A DNA stretch of 64,000 nucleotides from Nitrospina sp. GTDB lineage: Bacteria > Nitrospinota > Nitrospinia > Nitrospinales > JACRGP01. Below, piece by piece: positions 31,717-37,665 of this stretch. The DNA is taken from contig JACAVV010000011.1 in the NCBI GenBank assembly GCA_024648695.1, forward strand, positions 62,001 to 126,000. Reading direction: 5' to 3'. Each line of letters opens with the position of its first letter. Position 1 is the first letter of the stretch. A program made the translations under genes and the position numbers. The notes beneath the pieces are model-generated. The model worked only from the letters and a program-made list of their open reading frames with translations, made no database searches and had not been told where the DNA came from.

Positions 31717-32601
31717 CTATCTATTGTTGAAAAAGTTTTTAATCTCGATAAGGATTTTTTCATAACAGTCTTCCACCACATAATGTCCGGCATCGGGAAG
31801 TTCCAGACAATCGGCGTTAGGGAAAACTTCACGCCACCGTTTTAAAAAATGCCGGTTGAAACAAAAATCCTTCATTCCCCAGATTATCAGGATAGGGTGA
31901 TTGGAAAACAGGTGGAGCCGGGATTCGATATCCTTGACCACTTCATGGCTTTTAACATGGGGTTCCAAAGGAATGTCCTGAACGAACCGTAAATTGGCGA
32001 TCCGGTTAGCGAAGGAATTATATGGCGCCAGATAGCCTGCCCTCACCTCCGGGGTCATGCGTTCCTTTTTCTTGCAGGCTCTCAACACTCCTCCCAATGC
32101 AAAAGCATTGAAGCAACGGATTAGTATACTTCCCAATATCGGGGTTCGGCAGAGGTTGATACTTGCGGGAATCCGGTTGGACAAAAATGCTGCTGTATTA
32201 AAAATCACCAAACGCTTCACATTTTCCGGGTGCCTTACCGCATAGCCCATTCCGATAGCACCACCCCAATCATGCAAAACAAGGGTTAGATCTTTTAACT
32301 GCAAATGCCCGCACAGGCGTTCAATGTTTGCTATATGAGTTTTTAATGTGTAAGGGTAATCTTGCGGCTTGTCTGAAAGACCACAGCCCATGTGGTCGGG
32401 AACGATACAGCGGTGAGTTTTTTTAAGCTCCGTGACCAGATGACGGTAATAAAAAGACCAAGTAGGATTGCCATGCAACATCAAAAGAGGTTCGCCCTCT
32501 CCTTCATCCAGGTAATGCAAACGGTGCCCGTCAATTTCCAGGTAATTCGAGGCAAAGGGATACAGCTTTTTTAACGACCCAGAAACTTTAAAGCTCACCA
32601 C
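31717..32601 (-). CDS. oleB: OleB-type beta-lactone decarboxylase
   Basis: OleB converts the cis-beta-lactone of long-chain olefin synthesis to the cis-alkene and CO2. It belongs to the haloalkane-dehalogenase branch of alpha/beta hydrolases. HGNPTWSFYYRHL (oxyanion region), the nucleophile D111 in LVLHDWGGAIG, and the base H273 in DAGHYVVED are seen. By sequence alone it would be called a haloalkane dehalogenase. The adjacent oleA, overlapping its start by 7 nt, makes OleB the better call. The remaining Ole proteins are not next to it. Confidence 0.8.
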   Translation of the reverse strand: MVSFKVSGSLKKLYPFASNYLEIDGHRLHYLDEGEGEPLLMLHGNPTWSFYYRHLVTELKKTHRCIVPDHMGCGLSDKPQDYPYTLKTHIANIERLCGHLQLKDLTLVLHDWGGAIGMGYAVRHPENVKRLVIFNTAAFLSNRIPASINLCRTPILGSILIRCFNAFALGGVLRACKKKERMTPEVRAGYLAPYNSFANRIANLRFVQDIPLEPHVKSHEVVKDIESRLHLFSNHPILIIWGMKDFCFNRHFLKRWREVFPNADCLELPDAGHYVVEDCYEKILIEIKNFFNNR

Positions 32602-33641
32602 TCAACGCCTAACATCAAGCAAACCAGTCCGCTTCCGATACCGAGCATCGCCGCCTTCTGGCCCTTCCGAATCGCCCCCTGCTCGACTCCCAGCCCCATT
32701 GTCACCGGCAATGAGGCGGCACCTGTGTTTCCCAAAAACTCCAGCGTGGAAAAATCTTTTTGAATGTCCAGGCCTAGGGTCTGGTACATCAACTTTCGAT
32801 GCATGCCACCTACCTGATGGCAGAATACTCTATCAATATCGTCATTGTTCCAGCCTAAAACCTTTCTAGCATCAACCCAGGTTTCTCCGGCAAATGCACA
32901 ACCCTCTTTCATCAGGGTTTCGGAATCGGTTTCCATTAGAGGTGCGGTGCTGGAATGCATACCACTGTCCTGACTACCTCGGCATAAATGGTTGAACCGG
33001 GTTTTGGCCCGAACCACGCCCCCTACCAGCTTATGCCCGGTTTTGGAAACGTTTTTATGAGTCAGCAAAACTCCCACCGCCGCGGAACCAATGGTGAGGG
33101 AGGCAAATGCCAGTTTTGCACGCGACCTGTTCAGTTCGGTGGATGCAAGCATGGTTTCAATGGTGTGATCCACCAGCGGACCGCCGTTTTCTCCGGCAAC
33201 AACCAAGCCTGCTTCAATTTGACCCAACTCGATCATGTTGGCTACAGTCACCATTCCATTAAGCACACCCAGGCAGGCGTTTGATATATCCATGACGACC
33301 GCCTGACCGGGAAGCTTCAGGTTGTCATGAATCACCGATGCCGTAGCAGGCTCCAAAAAGTCGCGGCATACAGAGGCGTTGATGAGACACCCAATGCGTT
33401 GCCTGTCAAAGTCAGCACGCTTGATGGTATCTTCTCCGGCAATCGAACTCACTTCGCTGGGAAAGGTGCCTTTTTCCCAAAACCGACGCTCTTTTATACC
33501 GCTCATCAACTCCAATCGTCCAATGGGCATTTTGAGCCTGTCATACAAGGGTTTTAAGCGAGTCTCCAGTTCCAGGGACGTCACTACATTTTCTGGCAGG
33601 TGATACCCAATAGCCTCTATACAGACATTTTCAAATCTCAT
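32595..33641 (-). CDS. oleA: OleA-type thiolase, long-chain acyl condensation
   Basis: OleA joins two long-chain acyl-CoAs head to head to give a 2-alkyl-3-ketoacid. The protein is a FabH-like thiolase of 348 residues. The catalytic Cys is C123 in DISNACLGVLNG, and the OleA-specific Glu is E97 in VCRDFLEPATAS. CHQVGG supplies the active His and FLGNTGAASLP the Asn. This RDFLEP segment separates OleA from FabH and fits the pathway of Xanthomonas, Stenotrophomonas and Shewanella. AAGGA is 8 nt before the ATG. The genes around it run ABC exporter, oleA, oleB. Confidence 0.85.
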   Translation of the reverse strand: MRFENVCIEAIGYHLPENVVTSLELETRLKPLYDRLKMPIGRLELMSGIKERRFWEKGTFPSEVSSIAGEDTIKRADFDRQRIGCLINASVCRDFLEPATASVIHDNLKLPGQAVVMDISNACLGVLNGMVTVANMIELGQIEAGLVVAGENGGPLVDHTIETMLASTELNRSRAKLAFASLTIGSAAVGVLLTHKNVSKTGHKLVGGVVRAKTRFNHLCRGSQDSGMHSSTAPLMETDSETLMKEGCAFAGETWVDARKVLGWNNDDIDRVFCHQVGGMHRKLMYQTLGLDIQKDFSTLEFLGNTGAASLPVTMGLGVEQGAIRKGQKAAMLGIGSGLVCLMLGVEW

Positions 33642-33659
33642 TCAAACATTCCTTAAAAT

Positions 33660-35402
33660 CTATTCACGGCTTTTAATATCGATCAGTTGCATTTCATAAT
33701 ATTTTTGATAGATACCGCTTCTCTGTAACAACTCCTCATGGTTGCCCGATTCCACAATTTGCCCCTGATCCAATACGATAATCCGGTCGGCGTGCTTGAT
33801 AGTTGACAGGCGGTGGGCAATCACAAACGTCGTCCGGTGTTCCATTAAATGATACAAGGCATCCTGCACCAGTTTTTCCGATTCTGAGTCGAGAGAAGAT
33901 GTGGCTTCGTCCAGTACCAGAATGGGAGCGTTCCTCAACAAGGCCCTGGCAATGGCAATACGCTGGCGTTGTCCGCCAGAAAGTTTGACTCCTCGTTCTC
34001 CAATCAGGGTTTGATACCCGTCGTCCAGAGTGGAAACGAAAGACTCCACATGCGCGGCCCGGGCCGCGGAATGAACTTCTTCTTCATCAGCTTCCGGGTT
34101 TCCAAAATGGATATTATTCCAAATCGTGTCGTTAAACAAAAAGGTTTCCTGAGTCACCAGGGCAATATGCTGGCGCAGGGAATGGATTTCGAAATCATTG
34201 ATATCCACTCCATCGATTAAAATCTGGCCGTCGGTCACTTTAAAAAAACGAAACAGTAAATCCACCAGGGTTGTTTTTCCAGCTCCACTCATTCCCACAA
34301 TAGCGAGCACTTCCGATTTTTGAACAACCAGATCGACATGGTCCAACACCAGGGCATTGCGTGTGGGGTATTTAAAAGATACTCCCTTATATTCAATCCT
34401 GTCTTCAAAGCTTTCAAATGGCATGTCTCCACCCTGCAAGGATTCTCGCTCTTGATCGAGAACTGAAAACACGCGCTCTGCAGAGGCCAGCGAAGTCTGG
34501 AATTTGGCGTATAGTTTAAACAACAAGCGAACCGGAGCATACATCATGAACAGGGCCACGATAAAAGCAATGAAAGTACCCTGCGACACTTGACCCGTCA
34601 ATACCTGGGTTCCACCATACCAAAGAATCATGCCACCACACACGGCTCCCAAGGACTCCATAAAAGGAGAAGCCATTTCGACGTACTTGACGTCTTTCTT
34701 TTTCACCCTAAGAAACTGCTCATTTTCCTTTTGAAATTTGTCGCTTTGTTGAGATTCCAGACCAAAAGCACGAATAATTTTAATTCCTGAAAACGACTCC
34801 TGCAGAGTGGAGAGGATATCGGCAAGGATCTCCTGCCCCTGGTGCCCCAGTTTACGCAGTTTTCTGGCGATGGTTCCAATTGGAAACGCCGCCAGGGGAA
34901 AAATAATCATCGCCATCCAGGCCCAATCCCATTTCAAATAAAACAACCAGATGATAAGTCCGATCAACATGATAAAGTTTTGCAAAAACTCCTTGACCAG
35001 GTTTGTAACCGAAGATTGCATAACCTGCACATCATTGTTGATTCGTGAGATCAGGTGCCCGGTGGTACTTTCCTCAAAATAGCCCATGGGAAGTTTGTGA
35101 ATATGTTCAAACATTGCGCTTCTAAGAGAAACCACCAAAACCCAGGAGGTGCGATAAATGATCAGATTTTGCAGATAGGTCAACGCGCCTTTAATTAAAT
35201 AGAGTCCGATAATAAGGAGGGGGATTACTTTGGCCATGACAAAATCTTTATTGACCAAAACATCGTCAAACGCTTTTTGAACTATTGGGACGGGAGAAGT
35301 AGAGATGGCGCCAACGATAACAGAGCAACCGATGGCCAAAAGAATTCTCTGCCAATAAGGTTTCAAATAGGCGACAAGGCGTTTATATAAATGAATTCTC
35401 AT
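33660..35402 (-). CDS. MsbA-like lipid ABC exporter (fused permease-ATPase)
   Basis: A half-transporter of 580 residues has six membrane helices (about 15-310) and an ATPase with Walker A (GMSGAGKTTLVDLLF), the ABC signature (LSGGQRQRIAIARALL) and Walker B (PILVLDEATSSLDSES). It dimerises. MsbA relatives flip lipid A or phospholipid, while others export drugs or peptides. It starts a three-gene minus-strand unit with oleA (18-nt gap) and oleB, so it might move olefinic lipid products or simply be a linked envelope gene. The ribosome site before its ATG is weak. Confidence 0.9.
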   Translation of the reverse strand: MRIHLYKRLVAYLKPYWQRILLAIGCSVIVGAISTSPVPIVQKAFDDVLVNKDFVMAKVIPLLIIGLYLIKGALTYLQNLIIYRTSWVLVVSLRSAMFEHIHKLPMGYFEESTTGHLISRINNDVQVMQSSVTNLVKEFLQNFIMLIGLIIWLFYLKWDWAWMAMIIFPLAAFPIGTIARKLRKLGHQGQEILADILSTLQESFSGIKIIRAFGLESQQSDKFQKENEQFLRVKKKDVKYVEMASPFMESLGAVCGGMILWYGGTQVLTGQVSQGTFIAFIVALFMMYAPVRLLFKLYAKFQTSLASAERVFSVLDQERESLQGGDMPFESFEDRIEYKGVSFKYPTRNALVLDHVDLVVQKSEVLAIVGMSGAGKTTLVDLLFRFFKVTDGQILIDGVDINDFEIHSLRQHIALVTQETFLFNDTIWNNIHFGNPEADEEEVHSAARAAHVESFVSTLDDGYQTLIGERGVKLSGGQRQRIAIARALLRNAPILVLDEATSSLDSESEKLVQDALYHLMEHRTTFVIAHRLSTIKHADRIIVLDQGQIVESGNHEELLQRSGIYQKYYEMQLIDIKSRE

Positions 35403-35444
35403 TCTACTATGGCCGCAATCTCAATCGGGCAAGAATTACCAGAC

Positions 35445-35491
35445 ACAAAAAAGCCCCTGCCTATGAATGAATCATAGAAACAGGAGCTTTT
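35445..35491 (-). terminator. intrinsic terminator after the USP/PCP_red gene
   Basis: On the minus strand, an 11-bp GC-containing stem (outer arms 35449-35459 and 35481-35491, one G-T mismatch) carries an inner 6-bp stem (CTATGA/TCATAG, 35461-35466 and 35472-35477). It is followed by a run of six T. It lies 37 nt beyond the USP stop codon, before the ABC exporter. Confidence 0.75.
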
Positions 35492-35527
35492 AAGAATTAG
35501 TTTGCTTACAGATATGATTAGATTAAT

Positions 35528-37501
35528 TTAAACGTTGGATTCCTTCTTGGGTAAAAAATCATCCAAAGTCAAACCATTGGCCAAGGCATTTTCCATCATT
35601 TTTTTGGACTCTTCGATGCCTTCTTCCGCCACCGTCAAGGTGATATCCGTAATATTGTTCTTTTGGGCATATTCAAGAACACGTTTTTTCGTGTTGTCCC
35701 GCATAAAACCCTGGGGAACCAGTTCAAGACGTTGAATCGCTTCCGGACTCCAATTGAATCCGCTATCATCAATATCCTGAGCATTGACGCCCATTTCAGT
35801 TTTAGAATCGCCATTCCCATTATCGCCGTTGGTTACTGCTTTTTCATTCAGGATCTTGTTCACAAAAGCAACGGTAATGGGTGAAATTTTCTGAACCCGG
35901 GCATTTTTCTCAATGCGCGCATGTGCCTTGCGGCGAATATGCCCCTCAGGATACTCATTCAACCGGTCAATCGCTTCCTGGGTCCAGTTAACCTCAACTG
36001 AATCAAAGGTGGTCACCGTGGTGACATCCCCTTCGTTTGCGCCTTCCGCTTCCAACTGGTCGTAATCAATGGGGAGAAGGCGTTCAACTCCCGCATTACA
36101 TACACCACATTTAACAGCATCATGACCCATAACGGCTCCACAATCGCCACATTTCATCCGAATGTCTTCCGGATTCTTTCCGGCATGAGCGGCCATCATT
36201 TCATCTTTCAGGCTATTGAGGTCAACATTTTCATATCCACCTTCCTCAGCTCCTGTTTTCTCACGCATTTTTTCACCGATTTTCTGCATCGCCTGCATAG
36301 CACCGGCAGGTAAAATATTCTGAACCGCTTCAGTGATAACCCCGGATGTGATCATGCTGTGCCCGCGCTCCAGCGCATATCTTAAAATAGCCGAAGTTGC
36401 CATTGGGCGAACAAAACCGGGAATATTCTTCAGGCGCTCTTTAGCTTCCACAGTCCAGTCGATGCTTTCCTCAGCTTGCATATCGATCGGCGGCTTGAAG
36501 ACTTTACTCGACAGGAATACGTTACAGGGAACAAGGCGTAAAAGATTCTCTGCGTTTCCACCAATATCCATATCCTGCGCACTGTGAACACCAATTCGAC
36601 CTAAAATCAGCAGAAATGGATTTTCTTCCCGGGCATACTGGAGAACTTTTTCAAATACTTTTCCATCCAGCAAGCGAATCGTACAATCAATGCCTTCCTC
36701 TTCAACAATCTTGCGGGAAATTTCCAGATGAGCCTGATAGATTTTAGCCAATCCCTTATCGATAATATCTTCGTGTAGTTTTTCCTGCTGTTCAAATTTG
36801 AATACCTTTCCAGCTTCTTTGGAAAGAACGCCAGTCAGGCTGTTGAACATTGCGTAATGGAAATAAGGATCAAAAGTAGAAATAACTTCCAGAGGTCGAC
36901 CGGTCAATTTTGATAATTCGATACCCGTTTTCAACCCGCCAAAAGATTGGCCACTGCCATCTACCGCCACAACGATTTTTCCACTGGATGGCTTGTCTTC
37001 ATGCAAGCCCGGTAAATGTTTAACCACCAGTGTATCTGTTTGAATTCGGCGAATCACACGCTCCGCAACGGTTCCGATCATACTGTCTTTAATAGCGCCG
37101 AGACCCAAAGCCCCCAGCACCACCAAATCATAATCCGATTCTTTAATATCACGGACCAATTCGATCCAGTTTCTGCCCTCAAGAGATTTTCCAACAAAGG
37201 GAATCTTTTCCTCTTCGCATCTAAACTTGGGAACATCCAGATAGGAATCGGTAATAACTTCCATTCCCTTTGTGATCAACTGATCGTGAATATTCCTTTG
37301 CTTTTCCAACTCTTGCTCGTCCTGATATTCCTCAGGCAGACCACTTTCCATCTGGCGAAAACGAACATCGTGCATTTTTGCGGCATACACATGGCTTGCC
37401 GTGATCGTGGTATCATTTCCCTTGGCAAAGCCCAAGGCAATATCGATACATTCGTTTGAGTAGTCCGAATTGTCTACTGGTATATAAATGTTTTTAAACA
37501 T
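35528..37501 (-). CDS. tandem universal-stress/PCP_red/zinc-ribbon fusion protein
   Basis: The 657-residue protein holds two UspA domains (1-163 and 174-332). Three copies of a PCP_red module follow (about 347-395, 503-552 and 582-637). They begin IDWTVEAKERLKNIPGFVRP, VNWTQEAIDRLNEYPEGHIR and FNWSPEAIQRLELVPQGFMR, the pattern of the C-terminal domain of light-independent protochlorophyllide reductase subunit B. A four-Cys zinc ribbon (C451, C454, C465, C468) lies between the first and second modules. The first UspA has a full ATP motif G130-x2-G133-x9-G143-T. The second has G301-x2-G304-x9-G314 followed by G. There are no chlorophyll genes nearby, so a role in light-independent pigment reduction is unlikely; redox or stress sensing is inferred. 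GGAGAG is 9 nt before the ATG. Confidence 0.85.
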   Translation of the reverse strand: MFKNIYIPVDNSDYSNECIDIALGFAKGNDTTITASHVYAAKMHDVRFRQMESGLPEEYQDEQELEKQRNIHDQLITKGMEVITDSYLDVPKFRCEEEKIPFVGKSLEGRNWIELVRDIKESDYDLVVLGALGLGAIKDSMIGTVAERVIRRIQTDTLVVKHLPGLHEDKPSSGKIVVAVDGSGQSFGGLKTGIELSKLTGRPLEVISTFDPYFHYAMFNSLTGVLSKEAGKVFKFEQQEKLHEDIIDKGLAKIYQAHLEISRKIVEEEGIDCTIRLLDGKVFEKVLQYAREENPFLLILGRIGVHSAQDMDIGGNAENLLRLVPCNVFLSSKVFKPPIDMQAEESIDWTVEAKERLKNIPGFVRPMATSAILRYALERGHSMITSGVITEAVQNILPAGAMQAMQKIGEKMREKTGAEEGGYENVDLNSLKDEMMAAHAGKNPEDIRMKCGDCGAVMGHDAVKCGVCNAGVERLLPIDYDQLEAEGANEGDVTTVTTFDSVEVNWTQEAIDRLNEYPEGHIRRKAHARIEKNARVQKISPITVAFVNKILNEKAVTNGDNGNGDSKTEMGVNAQDIDDSGFNWSPEAIQRLELVPQGFMRDNTKKRVLEYAQKNNITDITLTVAEEGIEESKKMMENALANGLTLDDFLPKKESNV

Positions 37502-37637: not shown

Positions 37638-37665
37638 ATTTTAACAAATAATTACAAACTGTCAA
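37638..37665 (-). promoter_or_regulatory. sigma-70 promoter of the USP/PCP_red gene
   Basis: On the minus strand TTGACA (37660-37665, perfect) and TAAAAT (37638-37643, 5 of 6) are 16 nt apart, with TG just before the -10. The predicted leader is about 130 nt. This is one of the strongest promoter matches in the window. Confidence 0.7.

Follow-up and report, generated by a model that had tools for sequence, protein, structure and literature searches.

The best-known owner of the PCP_red domain (PF08369) is BchB/ChlB, which carries it at its C-terminus (PDB 2kru) and acts on protochlorophyllide, and a stand-alone copy is represented by Asr4154 (2l09). Proteins such as Rv2623 (3cis), UspE (5cb0) and the ATP-bound TTHA0350 (3ab8) are made up of a pair of Usp domains bearing ATP-type glycine motifs, and two unrelated proteins, AhbD and HemQ/ChdC, carry out the same step from coproheme to haem b (PMC7242693). 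The gene described here is located in a 64,000-nucleotide stretch of Nitrospina sp. DNA, which we refer to as the window, and combines both kinds of domain in one chain (Table 1). It encodes a complete protein of 657 aa starting from an ATG. Its first PCP_red module can be aligned to 2kru and 2l09, but in contrast to BchB/ChlB the protein has no nitrogenase-like DPOR domain, bears three copies of the module per chain, occurs in genomes without BchL and is accompanied by respiratory and haem partners.

A Pfam search of the protein identified two stretches of Usp (PF00582; E=1.2e-30, 107 bits in total) and three stretches of PCP_red (E=1.5e-30, 105 bits in total vs. a cut-off of 32.5), and both matches are far beyond chance. 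Together with a profile search of the own genome, in which the middle PCP_red module reached an E-value of 2e-6 for one genome, this bears out the domain order proposed in an earlier, sequence-only reading of the window, including the assignment of all three C-terminal units to PCP_red and of two units to Usp with totals above the cut-offs. A comparison with the profile of DPOR subunit B (TIGR01278) revealed that the C-terminal segment alone matches the window protein, with 53 bits vs. a cut-off of 490, and that the nitrogenase-like DPOR domain is absent from it.

Table 1. Features of the fusion gene in the window and further PCP_red proteins encoded in the same genome
Feature	Position	Strand	Evidence and remarks
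Promoter-like TTGACA-16-TAAAAT, extended -10 (TG before the -10)	37638..37665	-	11/12 consensus matches; about six sites with at least 9/12 expected by chance in the region
Fusion gene, USP-USP-PCP_red-rubredoxin-like knuckle-PCP_red-PCP_red	35528..37501	-	ORF, Pfam, full-length homologues in the same bacterial order
USP domain 1 (residues 1-161)	37019..37501	-	66 bits vs. cut-off 24, C54:99019-99501; GxxG-9x-GT ATP motif; invariant H37, Y39, H44, Y59, H72, Y87
USP domain 2	36515..36979	-	47 bits vs. cut-off 24, C54:98515-98979; GxxG-9x-G motif; invariant H215, H243, Y255, H306
PCP_red module 1 (residues 349-392)	36326..36457	-	53.4 bits, above cut-off 32.5
Four-Cys knuckle C451, C454, C465, C468	36068..36157	-	rubredoxin-like in relatives
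PCP_red module 2 (about residues 506-548)	35858..35986	-	30.3 bits, slightly below the single-domain cut-off of 32.5
PCP_red module 3 (about residues 584-626)	35624..35752	-	34.1 bits, above cut-off 32.5
Intrinsic terminator hairpin followed by U's	35435..35510	-	fold z=-5.4; no report from the consensus scanner; lies between the gene and the MsbA-like ABC exporter that follows it
CxxC-PCP_red protein adjoining Mrp	L013		own genome
NirJ2/AhbD-like radical SAM-PCP_red protein	L014		own genome
278-aa protein with three PCP_red modules, no other known domain	L015:5168-6004	-	contig C55
Chlorite dismutase domain, coproheme-decarboxylase-like, with PCP_red fused N-terminally	L016:5057-6016	+	contig C10; PF06778, 191 bits

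The description of the gene as a stand-alone unit with its own promoter and terminator applies to the window and the order it belongs to, but not to most other phyla, in which the fusion is part of a same-strand cassette. On the 3' side of the terminator (31717-35402) there are genes for the MsbA-like exporter, a ketoacyl synthase III-like protein and an alpha/beta hydrolase, arranged in the same order in 11 to 12 of 13 loci of the phylum; the latter two may be OleA/OleB-like.

For the analysis of conservation we used an alignment of 67 sequences from the phylum of the window and nine or ten other groups. All six histidines listed for the two USP domains and the tyrosines Y39, Y59, Y87 and Y255 are invariant in 67/67 sequences, and the same is true for the glycines of both GxxG-9x-G motifs (G130, G133, G143 and G301, G304, G314). 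The residue following G143 is T, S or G across the alignment, and the window protein itself has GT in the first and GG in the second USP domain. Both glycine motifs are of the ATP type, and ATP binding is predicted. The motifs HVYAA-x2-HD-x-RF-x-QME and QE-x-LHxxxIDxGLxKIY are located in helical inserts of the USP domains, and in our reading of the alignment the pseudo-twofold of the tandem Usp seems to relate the two inserts to each other. According to Foldseek, the predicted fold matches Rv2623, UspE and TTHA0350, but these proteins have neither a long helical His/Tyr insert in each Usp domain nor PCP_red and rubredoxin-like modules. The AlphaFold2 model of the whole fusion has a mean pLDDT of 76.5 and a pTM of 0.61. 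As the linkers between the modules (417-432, 484-490 and 554-575) are predicted with low confidence (pLDDT<50), the model lends no support to the three PCP_red modules forming one rigid pocket, a shared pocket being a possibility that had been raised for structure prediction.

The Cys4 site (CGDC-x10-CGVC, residues 451-468) sits between PCP_red modules 1 and 2 and had been read as a zinc ribbon. The four-Cys knuckle is indeed present, and all four cysteines are retained in 60/60 sequences having this segment, but Pfam calls neither a zinc ribbon nor RUBY_RBDX at this site of the window protein, and the relatives display a rubredoxin-type pattern, so that we rejected a Pfam zinc ribbon. In most phyla the segment reads YICxxCGYxxxxxxPxxCPVCxxxxxxFxxI, which resembles the YxCxxCGYxxxxxPxxCPVC pattern of the C-terminal rubredoxin-like domain of rubrerythrin (RUBY_RBDX, PF21349). 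This profile exceeds its cut-off of 26.5 only in the relative at locus L050 (33.7 bits) and yields a weak 20.7 bits, below the cut-off, in that at L070. In the order of the window, in contrast, the aromatic and CPxC signature is decayed (KCGDCG...KCGVC), and the site may hold either Fe or Zn.

The same reading had considered that the architecture might turn out to be widespread and already characterised. It is widespread: the fusion is present in 63/77 genomes of the phylum, including 29 of the 31 of good quality, and a single scan of the genome collection yielded at least 512 relatives outside of it. A characterisation was not found in the literature searched, which comprised few subscription papers and contained no description of a USP-PCP_red fusion, of its cassette or of PCP_red in connection with haem. 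For the neighbourhood analysis we used the best 80 of these at least 512 relatives, i.e. those nearest to a Poribacteria query. This set covers Poribacteria, which account for 42/80 loci, Rokubacteria/Methylomirabilota, Rhodothermia and other Bacteroidota, Calditrichota, Marinimicrobia, a Planctomycete, TA06 and a deltaproteobacterial bin, and overall at least eight phyla of bacteria lacking chlorophyll synthesis possess the architecture. Its size varies: in family f9 the protein is short, with about 400 aa arranged as USP-USP-PCP_red, in f6 this form is extended by a second PCP_red, and in f5 five PCP_red modules surround the rubredoxin-like domain. As the core tree places each main group on one side of a branch, the fusion seems to be mostly old and vertically inherited, with the root and the deep order being unsure, and we rejected a recent lateral spread for the same reason.

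The proposed absence of pigment genes was confirmed. In the own genome the only matches to DPOR BchL score about 30 bits vs. a cut-off of 345, and none of the 106 genomes surveyed (29 cassette genomes and 77 of the phylum) has a BchL above the cut-off; two genomes of the phylum contain nitrogenase-reductase-like matches of 211-216 bits. A remnant of phototrophy is therefore rejected for the own genome, the phylum and the 29 cassette genomes. The statement that PCP_red is known mostly from BchB/ChlB does not apply to the genomes examined, in which three to five protein families carry the domain and none of them is DPOR.

In the genome of the window itself the profile search identified five PCP_red proteins, namely the fusion and the four listed at the end of Table 1. 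The 278-aa protein with three modules has relatives within the phylum (L082, L073, L074 and L078). The protein with the chlorite dismutase domain is the sole member of that family in the genome, and its gene is followed by one for a THAP4-type haem-binding protein. Coproheme decarboxylases are its best PDB matches and thus its best solved relatives, and the regions of the active-site tyrosine (YPF...WYLL) and of the proximal histidine (EH) can be aligned. It differs from HemQ/ChdC by the N-terminal PCP_red module and by scores below the NCBIfam HemQ cut-offs (131 vs. 235 bits).

Among the best 80 loci the fusion belongs to a conserved cassette, and all counts given for it are lower bounds, as many contigs end within the cassette. 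The most constant neighbour is an Mrp/ApbC-type Fe-S ATPase (69/80, always on the same strand), which was found in nine of ten groups. A CxxC protein of 170-180 aa with a C-terminal PCP_red is present in 53/80 loci, and 44/80 encode an AhbD/NirJ-type radical SAM/SPASM enzyme, which in most cases also ends in PCP_red. Genes for CoxI, CoxIII or CoxIV of a haem-copper oxidase accompany the fusion in 61/80 loci, always on the same strand, together with CtaA (44/80), CtaB (50/80) and SCO1 (40/80). In 11/80 loci, from Rhodothermia, Calditrichota and the NC10 bacterium CSP1-5, a CydA-like bd oxidase subunit and two c-type cytochromes are found instead. Rhodothermia, Calditrichota, Marinimicrobia and one deltaproteobacterial bin (L132, L138, L141 and others) also have, 5' of the fusion, genes for two small conserved proteins of about 133 and 194 aa that give no Pfam match. 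The strongest evidence for a system is the phyletic lock-step of the modules: in 13/20 cassette genomes the number of PCP_red matches is exactly five, of which three belong to the fusion, one to the CxxC protein and one to the radical SAM enzyme, and in Rokubacteria this pattern holds though the CxxC gene is unlinked.

AhbD and NirJ2 (TIGR04545, TIGR04055) are the nearest families to the radical SAM partner in every group tested, but the cassette enzyme does not reach the curated cut-offs, carries an additional PCP_red at its C-terminus and mostly occurs alongside ferrochelatase. Against the AhbD cut-off of 500 bits, the f9 enzyme scores 459, that of the own genome 310 and those of other cassettes and relatives 298-334. 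Since outside f9 the enzyme attains just 60-70% of the cut-offs for AhbD/NirJ2, its substrate could be another one, for example a peptide. In those f9 loci whose contig extends that far, the gene immediately 3' of the fusion encodes the AhbD-like radical SAM-PCP_red enzyme. Where the contigs reach, the f9 loci (L053-L058) contain galT-like and glycogen synthase-like genes, a GAF histidine kinase, a response regulator, the USP-PCP_red gene, the radical SAM-PCP_red gene and a second radical SAM gene. Ferrochelatase is present in the own genome and in 16/20 cassette genomes; therefore the cassette is not required to replace ordinary haem synthesis, and an AhbD-type haem route in place of ferrochelatase is not supported.

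PCP_red is thus common to three unrelated types of tetrapyrrole enzymes, i.e. AhbD-like, ChdC-like and BchB, and its occurrence on relatives of AhbD and ChdC as well as on BchB argues that it concerns tetrapyrroles or a partner common to tetrapyrrole enzymes. Our preferred interpretation, to which we give slightly less than even credence, is that the fusion serves as an ATP-binding, redox-equipped scaffold of a putative tetrapyrrole (haem)-handling cassette for terminal oxidases. The PCP_red module would be small and helical, and its role would be to dock onto or hold either tetrapyrrole substrates or the enzymes carrying them; porphyrin binding by the domain is something we infer from its partners only. 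With three such modules on predicted flexible linkers, the fusion may bring the Fe-S ATPase together with the radical SAM enzyme; in the phylum of the window, the coproheme-decarboxylase-like protein fused to PCP_red would perhaps join them. ATP would be read by the USP pair, and the rubredoxin site would read or pass electrons, with the making, modification or delivery of haem being matched to the demand of the terminal oxidases. Such a device would be respiratory and not photosynthetic. A haem role is favoured because the two unrelated oxidase types found beside the cassette have haem in common. Against it, the linkage to oxidases could reflect general respiratory co-regulation. Moreover, the cassette genes of the own genome are scattered over contigs and its fusion does not adjoin an oxidase, and more than half of the loci analysed are from Poribacteria.

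The main rival to this interpretation, which we consider somewhat unlikely, is a docking system for Fe-S and radical SAM proteins. Here PCP_red merely mediates protein-protein docking, and the fusion scaffolds Mrp, the CxxC partner and the SPASM enzyme for cluster loading or electron supply, with a modified peptide, quinone or haem as product. The constancy of Mrp (PF10609, NUBPL iron-transfer NTPase) argues for it, and one PCP_red on each partner except Mrp together with three on the fusion is what a scaffold predicts. The rubredoxin-like and CxxC sites suit the handling of electrons or metals, and the best PDB relatives of the radical SAM partner include PqqE and SkfB; peptides are frequent substrates of SPASM radical SAM enzymes. 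However, pure docking leaves unexplained why PCP_red is fused to BchB and to a coproheme-decarboxylase-like protein, and also why oxidase, CtaA and CtaB genes are in the neighbourhood.

The sequence-only reading had suggested a lone sensor of a redox or porphyrin ligand under stress. An involvement of redox chemistry or porphyrins is supported, but the idea of a lone stress sensor does not fit the same-strand clusters of biosynthetic and assembly genes in which other phyla place the fusion. The tandem USP fold, the promoter-like site and terminator in the window and the histidine kinase and response regulator upstream in f9 would agree with a sensor; nevertheless, the fusion has no recognisable output domain, and the extreme conservation of the six-His helical USP insert suggests a fixed structural or catalytic role, so that we regard a stand-alone USP sensor as quite improbable. 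A factor for oxidase protein assembly that inserts subunits or copper, in which the USPs and PCP_red act as a chaperone and tetrapyrroles play no role, would be in line with the nearby SCO1 and the Cox subunits upstream but is very improbable, as the same cassette occurs beside the unrelated bd-like oxidase, where haem and not copper is the shared feature, and as the PCP_red-ChdC fusion stays unexplained.

Returning to the haem-handling scaffold, the domains involved were already known, and it is their combination and the cassette of which the literature searched gives no description. Beyond the fusion itself, it is possible but doubtful that PCP_red marks a widespread, undescribed bacterial haem system, consisting of the USP-PCP_red scaffold, Mrp, the CxxC-PCP_red adaptor and the AhbD-like radical SAM-PCP_red enzyme, which would make, modify or deliver haem for terminal oxidases, with BchB as a pigment-specific user. 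PF08369 has been used to flag phototrophs (PMC12815261). A domain that is named for chlorophyll synthesis and serves as its marker is here a core part of a cassette beside oxidase and haem-A genes in non-chlorophyll phyla; surveys of phototrophs based on PF08369 will catch these genomes at the pre-screen, which undercuts its use as a marker at that level. If the haem reading is true, the cassette would provide an entry point to the way in which large uncultured groups make haem for their terminal oxidases or deliver it to them, and it would also suggest a role for the unexplained C-terminal domain of BchB.
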